From: Candidatus Kapaibacterium sp.
GTDB lineage: Bacteria; Bacteroidota; Ignavibacteria; Kapaibacteriales; UBA4661
Assembly: GCA_025455065.1 (NCBI GenBank)
Contig: JALONG010000001.1
Location: 1-64,000, forward strand
DNA length: 64,000 bases
Direction: 5' to 3'
In this document: positions 1,729-15,996 of the stretch, piece after piece
Layout: every line of letters begins with the position of its first letter
Position numbering within the stretch: the first letter of the stretch is position 1
Program-made: the position numbers and the translations under genes
Notes under the pieces: model-generated
Told to the model about the DNA's origin: nothing
The model's database searches: none
What the model saw: the letters and a program-made list of their open reading frames with translations, nothing else

Positions 1729-2796
1729 TTAAAAAATTGTTTTGGATGGTATATTTTTCGTCGTTGTTTGTTCAAAATCAAGCAACCATTTTTTACGATG
1801 CACCCCACCACCATAGCCCTTTAATGCGCCATTTTCGCCAATAACACGATGACAGGGAATAAGAATAGCAATGCGATTCATACCGTTGGCATGAGCGACG
1901 GCTCGAACAGCATTCGGCATTCCCAGAAGTATCGATTGCTGCTTATAGGAGATTGTTTGCCCGAAAGGAATAGTTTGCAAAGTCTTCCATACAGTAGTTT
2001 GAAATTCCGACGCAGGAGCATGAAGAGCGCACGAGAACTGCGTTCGTTTTGCGGCAAAATATTCTTGCAGTTCTTGCTCAAGTTGCAATAGATGTATGTT
2101 GGATTGAGAGGGTAAGAGTGTTGCGTCAAGTCGCTGCATTATATCTCGGAGTTCTTGTTCGAGCATTCTTCTATCCAAAAACTCCAGTAAACATATTCCT
2201 TCAGGCGATGCGCAAGCAAGCATTGGTCCAAGCGGCGTGAGAATACGGGTATAATAAATTACAAGACTGTACCGTGCAGAGCGTGGTGATTTCTCAAAAA
2301 TTTCTCGAAAGCGTGTATTGAAGCCACTGAGAGAGTTATACCCCACATCAAAAGCACTTGCCGTTATACTTTCTCCCTCGTGAATTTGCGTAAATGCGTG
2401 TCCCACACGCATCATTCGTTGGTAGGCCTGAAAGGTCATATTATGGTGCTTCTTAAACCATCGACGAATTGTATGCGGCTCTAGTCCTCGTGTTGCAATA
2501 TCGCAATCTTTAATTTTGGCAAAAGGATTCTGTGCAATTTCATCTAAAAGTTTTTGAATCTCTGTCGGTGTTTCTCCCAATGGAAGCATTGGCTGGCATA
2601 CCTTACACGGTCTGTAACCATGTTGCATTGCGAGCGTTGGTGTAGAATAAAATTCAACATTTTCACGCTTTGGTTTCCTTGCGGTGCAGCTTGGTTTGCA
2701 AAAAATCCCCGTTGTTTTGACTGCCGTTACAAAAATGCCTTCAAAAGAAACATCTTTGTCCAAAATCGCTTGATACATCCGTTCTGCTGTTAGCAT
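1729..2796 (-). CDS. ada: Bifunctional Ada: methyl-phosphotriester sensor, AraC regulator and O6-methylguanine-DNA methyltransferase
   Basis: 355 residues from the ATG at 2796; a longer reading begins with TTG at 2820 and is less likely. Domains in order: Ada zinc domain with the four Cys ligands in FCKPSC and RPCKVC (about C33, C37, C64, C67); an AraC-type helix-turn-helix ('GHAFTQIHEGESITASAFD', 'GYNSLSGFNTRFREIF'); and the methyltransferase domain with the acceptor Cys in IPCHRVIG (about C315) and 'FGQTISYKQ'. Length and order match E. coli Ada. The protein removes methyl groups from DNA onto its own cysteines, and the methylated N-terminal domain then activates adaptive-response promoters. 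An outer-membrane protein gene follows closely and may share its transcript. Confidence 0.95.
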   Translation of the reverse strand: MLTAERMYQAILDKDVSFEGIFVTAVKTTGIFCKPSCTARKPKRENVEFYSTPTLAMQHGYRPCKVCQPMLPLGETPTEIQKLLDEIAQNPFAKIKDCDIATRGLEPHTIRRWFKKHHNMTFQAYQRMMRVGHAFTQIHEGESITASAFDVGYNSLSGFNTRFREIFEKSPRSARYSLVIYYTRILTPLGPMLACASPEGICLLEFLDRRMLEQELRDIMQRLDATLLPSQSNIHLLQLEQELQEYFAAKRTQFSCALHAPASEFQTTVWKTLQTIPFGQTISYKQQSILLGMPNAVRAVAHANGMNRIAILIPCHRVIGENGALKGYGGGVHRKKWLLDFEQTTTKNIPSKTIF

Positions 2797-2874
2797 AAAA
2801 AGCTTTGAAATGTGGTTCAATCAATGATTTGGTGCAAATCTACGCCAGGAAGATTCACAGAAACTACCGAAAAT

Positions 2875-2903
2875 TTGACAAGTATTTTTTTGCACATTAT
2901 CTT
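2875..2903 (+). promoter_or_regulatory. Candidate promoter for the LytS/LytTR pair
   Basis: TTGACA (2875-2880), 17 bp, then TATCTT (2898-2903), about 190 bp before the kinase start, in the divergent ada/kinase gap. This fits a sigma-70-type promoter. Bacteroidota-type sigma factors use other boxes, so this is a guess from sequence alone. Confidence 0.3.
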
Positions 2904-3023
2904 TTCATCGCTCATTGCCAATCATTACGTACTGCGCCTTGCGGCATAGCTCATATGAAGTATTGAAGCAGTGTTCACGATACTTCTGTACGTTAGCTTT
3001 GGTTCACGGGGCGTATTATTCCC

Positions 3024-3047
3024 TTTCAGCGACGATTCCGCGCCGTT
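3024..3047. repeat. 24-bp intergenic repeat, copy 2
   Basis: Exact copy of the 24-bp sequence at 612-635, same orientation, about 50 bp before the sensor kinase start. Flanking bases differ, which argues for a short dispersed element rather than a recent large duplication. Confidence 0.6.
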
Positions 3048-3095
3048 CAGCGATTTTCCCTTTCCCGCACTCAAAATTTCCGTAGCTTGCGTGGC

Positions 3096-4322
3096 ATGGA
3101 AACCTTTTTTACCAATATCGTCTTTTCCAATGTCCGCTCGTGGCGTGTGGTGCGGCATACAGCCTTTTGGCTGTGGTGGGTGATGTTTTTGTCGTGGCTC
3201 TATGCTGTGAAACTGGCACAGGTGAACACGCAAACGCTTTGGGGCGTGAATACCGCCTATTGGCTATCGTTTGTGGAAACGCTGGTCTATCTGCCTTGTC
3301 ATCTGCTCGTAACGTACAGCCTACTCTACGTCGTGATTTTGCGGTTCTTCCTTCAACAACGCTTTGTGGCTGTCGCCTTGGGCTTTGTTGTCACATACGC
3401 CGCAGCAGTGCTGCTTTCGCTGCCAATTACCTTTTTCATTACCATTCCGCTTCGCACAGCATTTGGGTTTGAACCGCCTTGGAACAGCGTTTTTGCGTCG
3501 TTTTCGACGGCGGTCAAAGGTGGAAGTTCGGTGTTGGGATTTGCTATTGGCATCAAACTGCTCAAACTCTGGTACGAAAAGCAGCGCGACAATCAACTTC
3601 TCACGCAAAAAAACCTTGAAGCCGAGTTGCAGAGCCTGAAAGCGCAGATTCACCCGCATTTTCTTTTCAACACCCTGAACAGCGTCTATGCTCTCACGCT
3701 GGAGCGCACCTTTTCGGGCATGGAAGCCGCATCGGAAGCGGTCTTGCGGCTTTCTGCCATGCTTCGCACAATGCTCTACGACGGCGCACAGGAACGTATT
3801 CCGCTCCGCACAGAACTTGACCTTATTCGCAATTACATCGAACTTGAGCGTTTGCGCTACGGAGACCGCGTTGATGTCTCGCTGGCGTGGAATAATGCGG
3901 ATTCGGAGGAGTTTAGTCTTGCCCCGCTTGTGCTTTTGCCGTTTGTGGAGAACGCCTTCAAGCACGGTGTAAGCGCAAGCACGGAAGCGGCGTGGGTGAG
4001 CCTTGAAACCAGCATCAAATCGAATGTTCTGACGTTTCGCCTTGTGAACAGCAAGCCGGAAGCCTCTCTTGCAATAGCAAACAATCTTCAAGAATACGCA
4101 GCAAGCACTATTCCAAGCGGCTTGGGGTTGATGAACGTCCGCAAACGTTTGGAACTGCTCTATCCCGACAAGCACACGCTTCGCATCAATGATGACGGTG
4201 AGACCTTTGTTGTGGCTTTGACGCTTGTTCTTAATCCAAGCAACCAAGCACTAAGCAGCAAAGCACTAAGTAACCAAGCACTAAGTAACCAAACAACGAC
4301 CCATGCGCTGTATCCTCATTGA
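3096..4322 (+). CDS. LytS/YpdA-type sensor histidine kinase (His_kinase family)
   Basis: 408 residues from ATG 3096; a TTG nine bases earlier is in frame but less likely. The N-terminal part has four hydrophobic membrane segments (about 18-165). A short coiled region leads to the phospho-acceptor motif 'QIHPHFLFNTLNS' with His about 186. The HATPase follows: 'LVLLPFVENAFKHGV' (N box) and 'GLGLMNVRKRLELLY' (G box). Such kinases lack a classical HisKA helix pair and usually signal to a LytTR regulator, which is the next gene, overlapping by 20 bp. The C-terminal tail is a tandem pentapeptide-like repeat (see 4242-4286) just before the overlap. The stimulus is unknown. Confidence 0.9.
   Translation: METFFTNIVFSNVRSWRVVRHTAFWLWWVMFLSWLYAVKLAQVNTQTLWGVNTAYWLSFVETLVYLPCHLLVTYSLLYVVILRFFLQQRFVAVALGFVVTYAAAVLLSLPITFFITIPLRTAFGFEPPWNSVFASFSTAVKGGSSVLGFAIGIKLLKLWYEKQRDNQLLTQKNLEAELQSLKAQIHPHFLFNTLNSVYALTLERTFSGMEAASEAVLRLSAMLRTMLYDGAQERIPLRTELDLIRNYIELERLRYGDRVDVSLAWNNADSEEFSLAPLVLLPFVENAFKHGVSASTEAAWVSLETSIKSNVLTFRLVNSKPEASLAIANNLQEYAASTIPSGLGLMNVRKRLELLYPDKHTLRINDDGETFVVALTLVLNPSNQALSSKALSNQALSNQTTTHALYPH
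4242..4286 (+). repeat. 3 x 15-bp in-frame tandem repeat at the kinase C-terminus
   Basis: Three consecutive 15-bp units related to AACCAAGCACTAAGT encode SNQAL/SSKAL-type pentapeptides. Units 1 and 3 differ at one base; unit 2 differs more. The repeat ends just before the start of the response regulator, so unit gain or loss would move the kinase stop and the coupled start together without breaking the frame. Confidence 0.8.
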
Positions 4323-14933: not shown

Positions 14934-15143
14934 TCATCGCCGATTCCTCATTGTTTCTCTAATTGCCTCAATGGGCAGATACAGCACGGAAGCAACTTGT
15001 TCCATGGGAATTCCAAGCTGAATCATAGCGACGGCACTCTCAAGTTTGCCTTCAAGTTTACCTTCCTTACGCTGCTCCTGCCCGTATTCTTGAACAGCAA
15101 GGCTCTCATGAATATCATCAAAAATTTCTCTGGTGTCTATCAT
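14934..15143 (-). CDS. Orphan C-terminal cassette duplicated from the Rpn-like gene
   Basis: 69 residues. The first 35 repeat the C-terminal part of the upstream Rpn-like protein almost exactly ('MIDTREIFDDIHESLAVQEY' and the following KLEGKLE stretch). The last 34 differ ('MIQLGIPMEQVASVLYLP' here against 'LLRLGLSVAQVADALDLP' there) yet keep the same helix-turn-helix-like spacing. The ATG corresponds to an internal Met of the parent, preceded by GAGG 8 bp upstream, so it could be translated on its own. It could equally be a silent spare tail. Confidence 0.55.
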   Translation of the reverse strand: MIDTREIFDDIHESLAVQEYGQEQRKEGKLEGKLESAVAMIQLGIPMEQVASVLYLPIEAIRETMRNRR

Positions 15144-15155
15144 GGCGCGTACCTC
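15043..15155 (-). repeat. 113-bp direct repeat, distal copy
   Basis: About 95 percent identical to 15263-15375, with start points exactly 220 bp apart. It covers the shared first half of the C-terminal cassette and the 13 bp before its ATG. The sequences beyond the repeat diverge, giving two different tail ends. Confidence 0.85.
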
Positions 15156-15996
15156 AAGCGATATGGCGATGAATACCTTCTACGACATCAAGGGGCAAGT
15201 CGAGAGCATCGGCAACTTGAGCAACAGAAAGTCCGAGACGAAGTAACTTAGGCACACCTTCGAGTTTGCCTTCAAGTTTGCCTTCTTCACGCTGCTCCTG
15301 CCCGTATTCTTGAACAGCAAGGCTCTCATGAATATCATCAAAAATTTCTCTGGTATCTATCATGGCGCGTACCTCTTGAATGGTTAAGGTTTTGTATTTG
15401 CTGACGTACAAACTTACGAATAAATCTTTGAACATCTTCTGCAAGACAAGGCTTTTTGTTTGGGAAATCCTCGCACTGAGTTTGGAAATAATCTCGTCGT
15501 CGGAAGGGCGATGTTCCGGCGTTACGGTCATTCGCATAAGCAGCATGGCAGCTTGTTCTTCGGGCGTTGTGAAGAGTTCTTCCTTTTCGGTTGCTTCGTC
15601 GAGATAGACCACGTGAATAACACCATCATCGCACAAAGATTTCCACTGCCCTGCGCCTGTGTCAATGCTGCGGGAACGCAGAAGCAGTACCATTTGAAAG
15701 CGTGTCAATTCCGGCATTTGCAAAAGCAAGAGAGAAGTTTCGCTCACAAGGCGCGTGTAAATGAGTTTGTCCGCCCAAAACTGCACTTCGCAGACAATCA
15801 CAGGCGCATCCGGTATAGCACCAGCGCCGGCTTCAGTATCGGGAAGTAAGATTCCATCGGCTCGTTGGGCTTTTTCTTTCAGTTCCACCGATTGAAAGTG
15901 GTAAGGAACATCCACCAAAGAATCCAAGTGCGCCATATGAAGCAACAATGCGGGTTGCGCCTCCAAAAGTTTGTAAAAAAGCGTATCGGTTTTCAT
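15154..15996 (-). CDS. Rpn-like (DUF2887/PD-(D/E)XK) putative transposase/nuclease family protein
   Basis: 280 residues. The N-terminal region has nuclease-fold elements: 'QRADGILLPD' with the likely catalytic Asp, then 'DAPVIVCEVQFWAD' with the E-x-Q motif, typical of Rpn/DUF2887 proteins. The tail has a charged repeat ('EEGKLEGKLEG') and a helix-turn-helix-like end ('LGLSVAQVADALDLP'). Rpn proteins of E. coli are DNA endonucleases that raise recA-independent recombination and are linked to defence in recent work; DUF2887 members are abundant in cyanobacteria. The ATG overlaps the moaA stop (ATGA), so translation is coupled to moaA. The next gene is a duplicate of its own tail. Confidence 0.75.
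   Translation of the reverse strand: MKTDTLFYKLLEAQPALLLHMAHLDSLVDVPYHFQSVELKEKAQRADGILLPDTEAGAGAIPDAPVIVCEVQFWADKLIYTRLVSETSLLLLQMPELTRFQMVLLLRSRSIDTGAGQWKSLCDDGVIHVVYLDEATEKEELFTTPEEQAAMLLMRMTVTPEHRPSDDEIISKLSARISQTKSLVLQKMFKDLFVSLYVSKYKTLTIQEVRAMIDTREIFDDIHESLAVQEYGQEQREEGKLEGKLEGVPKLLRLGLSVAQVADALDLPLDVVEGIHRHIA
15263..15375 (-). repeat. 113-bp direct repeat, copy within the Rpn-like gene
   Basis: Partner of 15043-15155. It encodes 'EVRAMIDTREIFDDIHESL' and the GKLEGKLE stretch of the full-length protein. Recombination between the copies would delete 220 bp and swap the tail of the Rpn-like protein while keeping its frame. Confidence 0.85.

Follow-up and report, generated by a model that had tools for sequence, protein, structure and literature searches.

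A probable DUF2887-branch Rpn toxin–antitoxin locus with an additional, stand-alone antitoxin gene in Candidatus Kapaibacterium

A pair of minus-strand genes in a 64,000-nt stretch of Candidatus Kapaibacterium sp. DNA (contig JALONG010000001.1, positions 1 to 64,000; this whole stretch is referred to here as the window) probably constitutes an Rpn-type toxin–antitoxin locus of the DUF2887 branch that contains an additional antitoxin gene standing on its own. The long, rpnL-like gene (15154..15996) encodes a 280-aa protein of the DUF2887/Rpn family, a predicted PD-(D/E)XQ nuclease, and the small, rpnS-like unit (14934..15143) follows 10 nt downstream and encodes 69 aa; both open reading frames are intact. 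The small unit has its head in common with the long gene and a tail that is different. Specifically, the two are joined by a direct repeat of 121 nt, with copy 1 (15255..15375, minus strand) lying within the long gene and spanning a Shine-Dalgarno (SD) motif and the head helix, and copy 2 (15035..15155, minus strand) spanning the SD motif and the head of the small unit. The copies are 94% identical and spaced exactly 220 bp apart, much as a first-pass annotation of these letters had described them, although it put the length of this near-identical repeat at 113 bp. Six codons differ within the repeat (four synonymous changes and two non-synonymous ones). Main and spare units are 98% identical over the first 20 codons, whereas beyond the repeat the tails are 49% identical at the DNA level, with the pattern of structural residues preserved, and the small unit is indeed the diverged C-terminal module that it had been taken for. 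This linkage of a long gene to a diverged small unit through a repeat is confirmed, and it is not a product of chance, since this layout recurs at two more loci of this genome and in three related genomes. The 121-nt repeat is one of two direct repeats of at least 60 nt in the 64-kb window; the other (84-225 and 737-878; 142 nt, 77% identical) is unrelated to the rpn locus.

The assignment of the long gene to the Rpn family, already made in the first pass, holds. The long protein matches Pfam PF11103 (DUF2887) with an E value of 2.4e-32, its sole Pfam match, and TIGR01784 (Rpn nucleases, COG5464) with 61.7 bits, above the cut-off of 52.1, over residues 2-273. E. coli RpnE matches the body domain PF04754 (Transposase_31), which the long protein does not match; because TIGR01784 recognises the window protein without PF04754, we place it in a sister branch rather than among the E. 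coli-type Rpn proteins. The catalytic residues D11, D63, E82, Q84 and R94 are required in E. coli RpnA (PMC5350276), and by spacing and motif we assign D4, D47, E70, Q72 and R82 of the long protein as their counterparts. Among 13 homologues D4, E70, Q72 and R82 are invariant and D47 is nearly so, and the E-x-Q motif and the spacing to the arginine are those of RpnA. AlphaFold2 predicts an alpha/beta core followed by a helical tail (pLDDT 80.4); the best Foldseek matches of the body model, to the restriction endonucleases MspJI and PspGI, are not significant. PADLOC contained no model matching the rpn locus, and the literature we searched yielded no expression, toxicity or binding data for DUF2887 proteins and no paper that names DUF2887.

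The repeat opens with GAGGTACGCGCCATG, which in the long gene forms codons 208-212 (EVRAM). Its first bases are a GAGG SD motif (15372..15375, minus strand) ahead of an internal ATG at 15363, and in the small unit the same combination of SD and ATG falls right at the stop codon of the long gene, the GAGG (15152..15155, minus strand) overlapping the TGA. The glutamate codon that forms the internal SD is GAG in all 16 of 16 related full-length genes, compared with a GAG background of 28% there, and in 15 of these 16 the internal site ranks within the top 5% of positions by anti-Shine-Dalgarno energy (the nominal p value of 1.5e-9 overstates independence, as the 16 genes are kin, though their protein sequences are widely diverged). 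Starts in this genome generally show no average excess of anti-SD pairing, so the internal motif stands out. A conserved internal SD and ATG of this kind is what an internal translation start giving a C-terminal piece should look like, and the predicted product would be an RpnS-like small protein encoded within the long gene (15154..15363, minus strand).

In E. coli, Zhong et al. (2023, PMC10327210) described RpnS as an antitoxin that is produced from an internal start and, in some cases, from a distinct rpnS gene lying downstream, and they also reported fusion of such genes to the nuclease body. By extension from the E. coli work, the long gene of the window would give rise to the nuclease RpnL, the internal SD and ATG would yield the C-terminal helical piece alone (RpnS), and RpnS would pair with RpnL through the common head helix and keep the nuclease off. 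The 69-aa gene would then be a duplicate RpnS unit with its own ribosome-binding site and a tail module from another lineage. The head helix of the long gene contains two four-residue repeats (KLEG-KLEG, 15256..15279, minus strand) and the small unit contains the same number (KLEG-KLES, 15036..15059, minus strand), making the helices equal in length. One extra repeat abolished inhibition in E. coli RpnC (PMC10327210), and in the light of that experiment the equal repeat numbers suggest that the small unit should still pair with the resident RpnL.

We consider the small unit most likely to be a stand-alone RpnS-type antitoxin gene rather than a silent cassette or a mere spare tail, since it comes with a start codon and SD motif of its own and since purifying selection acts on comparable units. 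It had been annotated in the first pass as a spare C-terminal cassette, a description that fits its diverged tail but not its own translation signals. By profile the small unit matches TIGR01784 at the C-terminal end only (E=1.3e-5), and it matches the RpnA-S structure 7TH0 weakly over almost its full length, a match that is not significant (E=0.13). AlphaFold2 predicts helices at residues 4-42, 47-53 and 58-68 (mean pLDDT 73.6), a long first helix and two short ones, as in the three-helix bundle of RpnS. A helix-turn-helix had been proposed earlier for the tail. The best Foldseek matches of the tail model, to helix-turn-helix domains of resolvases and regulators, are not significant, and we therefore claim no DNA-binding function for the tail.

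All the intact spares that we found in relatives come with an SD-like motif and a start codon of their own. Purifying selection was measured on these relatives, because the tails of the window pair have diverged too far to allow a clean test. Between stand-alone orthologues of two different species (G007 and G001) we counted 24.7 synonymous and 11.3 non-synonymous changes, for a pN/pS of 0.14, and an orphan unit of G005 gives a pN/pS of 0.15 when compared with a related main tail. These values indicate that stand-alone units are maintained as proteins, and we reject on this coding constraint the simple notion that the small unit is a tandem duplicate decaying without function. Such decay does occur in this genome, where one copy (C88) is frameshifted and truncated and other rpn remnants are found, but the window unit is intact and has an SD motif, and intact units are present at several independent loci, which makes decay a very unlikely account of the window unit.

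The surroundings of the pair are tight. The start codon of rpnL overlaps the stop codon of moaA (ATGA, 15993-15996), and 17 bp separate the end of the small unit from the stop codon of the threonine synthase gene. In the sister genome G001, moaA and the threonine synthase gene lie next to each other, separated by 57 bp that contain no rpn. This empty site, together with the tight flanks in the window, indicates that the insert is essentially the gene pair alone and begins exactly at the end of moaA. We therefore rejected the idea that the small unit is a transposing mobile element. Inverted repeats around the small unit were short and chance-like, and the 64-kb window contained none of 60 nt or more. 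An Rfam scan of the region gave no match, and a reading as a riboswitch or an RNA antitoxin was dropped on that ground. Promoter and terminator scans gave nothing decisive, and a search of viral contigs found no relatives.

Relatives were sought in this genome and in its family, and those named here are all metagenome-assembled genomes (MAGs) of Kapabacteria/Ignavibacteria. A separate downstream rpnS-type gene is present in the window, at a sister locus of the same genome (C46) and in G001, G005 and G007. At C46 the full gene is followed by two stand-alone units in tandem, and one intact stand-alone unit is found at each of G007 C9, G001 C345 and G005 C5. The unit is not always kept, as the degenerate spare at C88 attests. 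The spares are mosaics: their heads resemble the heads of their own locus, while their tails often come from other lineages. Main and spare are 93% identical in the head and 58% in the tail at G007 C9, and 97% and 55% at G001 C345. In the window, the resident tail (15154..15258, minus strand; type VPKLLxLGLS) is closest to the tails of its body clade at C88 and C46, whereas the spare tail (14934..15038, minus strand; type SAxAMIxLGIP) is nearest not to its own resident tail but to the main tails of G005 C12 and G001 C389 and to the spare of G001 C345. The number of KLEG-type repeats varies across related loci, and main and spare heads are unequal in length in the second spare of C46 and in G007, G001 and G005. 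Given the effect of an added repeat in RpnC, spares of this kind may not serve as antitoxins to the resident toxin.

Mosaic tails could also arise if a new tail displaced the old one, which stayed downstream and was kept as immunity against kin or paralogues that carry the old toxin, in the manner of orphan immunity in type VI secretion systems (T6SS). The different lineages of resident and spare tails and the two successive spares at C46 are in keeping with this possibility, as are the analogous immunity arrays of Vibrio T6SS (PMC5361080). In the window, however, it is the resident tail that is typical of the body clade and the spare that is foreign, the opposite of what simple displacement predicts, and we regard displacement as a doubtful explanation. 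The Vibrio arrays and the esaG arrays of the type VII secretion system (T7SS; PMC9484751) resemble the rpn loci in that tandem, diverged antitoxin or immunity genes stand behind a polymorphic toxin and in that homologous recombination through conserved blocks remodels the array. They differ from the window in that the proteins are unrelated and the genes confer immunity to secreted effectors and are separate from the toxin gene.

On the reading that we prefer, that of a stand-alone antitoxin gene, the shared heads would also allow homologous recombination to delete the resident tail and to fuse the spare tail to the nuclease. Such a swap would alter RpnL and the internal RpnS together, such that a new toxin would be born with its matching antitoxin. 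That recombination across the repeat exchanges the tail had been proposed in the first pass, and products of the kind expected exist in relatives. G007 carries rpn genes at C9 (L050 2300-10200) and C73 (L051 6300-14000), on two related mobile elements, which encode ParA, a ParB-like protein, a helicase/primase-like protein of 1150-1185 aa, a RecA-like ATPase and a serine recombinase. C9 and C73 are essentially identical over ~900 bp around rpn and mostly 80-95% identical elsewhere. The C73 locus is that of C9 minus exactly one 225-bp repeat unit, with the body running into the spare tail of C9, and synonymous markers place the crossover within the repeat. G007 is a MAG in which a mixed assembly is possible, although the coverage of the two contigs is similar (12.0 and 10.6). 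In G001 the locus has two units, with the tail types seen in G007, which identifies the single-unit copy of G007 as the derived state. G005 and G006 share a further orthologous locus, whose flanks are 87-92% identical; G005 has a spare there and G006 has none. Taken together, these comparisons support recombination across the repeat as an evolutionary process that has swapped the tails of toxin genes in nature, in relatives of the window. Among the relatives, the two units are thus neither unchanged throughout nor free of coding constraint. The strain comparison is drawn from sister species and from E. coli.

The earlier description of the locus as having a tail-switching layout stands insofar as swaps occur in relatives, but the deletion is one-way and would lead to diversification or loss rather than to a reversible switch. 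We rejected reversible phase variation: there is no inverted arrangement, and deletion loses the resident tail. The natural fusion products in G007 and E. coli, the exchange of tails between lineages and the heads of several spares that differ in length from that of the resident would suit a unit that is kept because recombination yields new RpnL/RpnS specificities, like orphan Rhs tips, with no need for an antitoxin role beforehand. Weighing on the other side, translation start signals (a start codon and an SD-like motif) are retained in all intact spares, purifying selection acts on stand-alone units, G005 keeps an orphan unit that has no nuclease close by, and an irreversible deletion gives no switch unless the tail is resupplied. 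We therefore consider it possible but unlikely that the unit is held purely as a store of tails. In orphan Rhs toxin tips, a displaced C-terminal module is fused to the main gene by recombination at shared sequence (Koskiniemi et al. 2014, PMC3967940). The window locus is like them in having a C-terminal module displaced downstream of the main gene and open to fusion by recombination. Unlike orphan Rhs tips, which are toxins with separate immunity genes and lack a translation start, the window unit has a start codon of its own and probably acts as an antitoxin. The Rhs core repeats and start-less tip likewise do not describe this locus, in which the body is DUF2887 and the small unit has an SD and ATG. 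The window locus resembles Rhs in its working and is not a member.

Tandem antitoxin units might, furthermore, act as a device for changing specificity, in which one crossover in the head exchanges the tail of the toxin and its antitoxin at once. In that case the spare would already be translated when the new toxin appears, such that no exchange would be lethal; tails would differ in the phages that they answer, and arrays would record tails that were used in the past or are available. We put this forward only tentatively and think it rather unlikely.

The preferred reading, with a separate antitoxin gene, has a close parallel in rpnE-ypaA of E. coli K-12, where a 72-nt, 97% identical repeat opens with AAAAGGAGAGATTAATG, 12 nt separate stop from start and the tails are diverged. 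Like the window locus, this locus has a nuclease body, an internal SD and ATG, and a C-terminal helical module with four-residue repeats, as well as a stand-alone copy 10-12 nt downstream and a repeat that begins at an SD overlapping the stop codon; in both, the heads are near identical and the tails diverged. On these grounds the window locus is best read as belonging to the known RpnL/RpnS kind with a separate downstream rpnS, which would carry that arrangement beyond the E. coli-type Rpn proteins and into the DUF2887 branch, in Kapabacteria. The two differ in the family of the body (DUF2887, PF11103, versus PF04754 in rpnE), and the predicted internal start at the window locus is displaced upstream by ~18 residues relative to the helical bundle. 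Moreover, the two tails of the window locus come from separate lineages. In E. coli, by contrast, downstream copies are reported by Zhong et al. (PMC10327210) to cluster with their own upstream partner. The two tandem spares of the sister locus C46 are a further difference from rpnE-ypaA.

Of 5,426 complete E. coli genomes, 5,363 contain the distal tail and 2,977 contain the junction with the proximal tail, such that ~55% have two units and ~2,390 (~45%) appear to have one, a share that comes from a 66-nt probe and is similar by length in an even sample of 60 records. The near-universal distal tail and the variable proximal one look as though the proximal tail arrived later or was lost by deletion, and in that respect the pattern lends something to the displacement explanation above. 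In all four single-unit strains that we read (BL21, NCTC9008, 2015C-3905 and CDC#03-98), the distal tail is fused to the rpnE body, in agreement with the prediction from deletion between the heads and as in G007. The rpnE gene of BL21 combines the internal head of K-12, which has no KLEG, with the ypaA tail, and the number of four-residue repeats varies in E. coli too. The evolution of the hypervariable Rpn tail may accordingly be framed in a testable way, as head recombination that would swap the tails of toxin and antitoxin jointly, and the mixed E. coli population makes tail swapping measurable in laboratory strains.

We note several further rpn genes and fragments. The genome of the window (G000) contains at least four more, distant DUF2887-type genes (C70, C52, C15 and C51), beside which we found no small-unit relative, as well as further rpn remnants. 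The orphan RpnS-like unit of G005 (C2; L074 2534-2806) has its own SD and lies directly behind a gene for an ECF-type sigma factor, with no nuclease gene near it. At G006 C95 (L072 ~2560-3660), a ~1.1-kb insertion with short duplicated target flanks breaks the rpnL body near codon 202, and the tail unit beyond the insertion is intact with an SD and ATG. In a remnant at G001 C415 (L040) that has lost the nuclease body, codons 1-17 of rpnL run straight into the start of a small unit.
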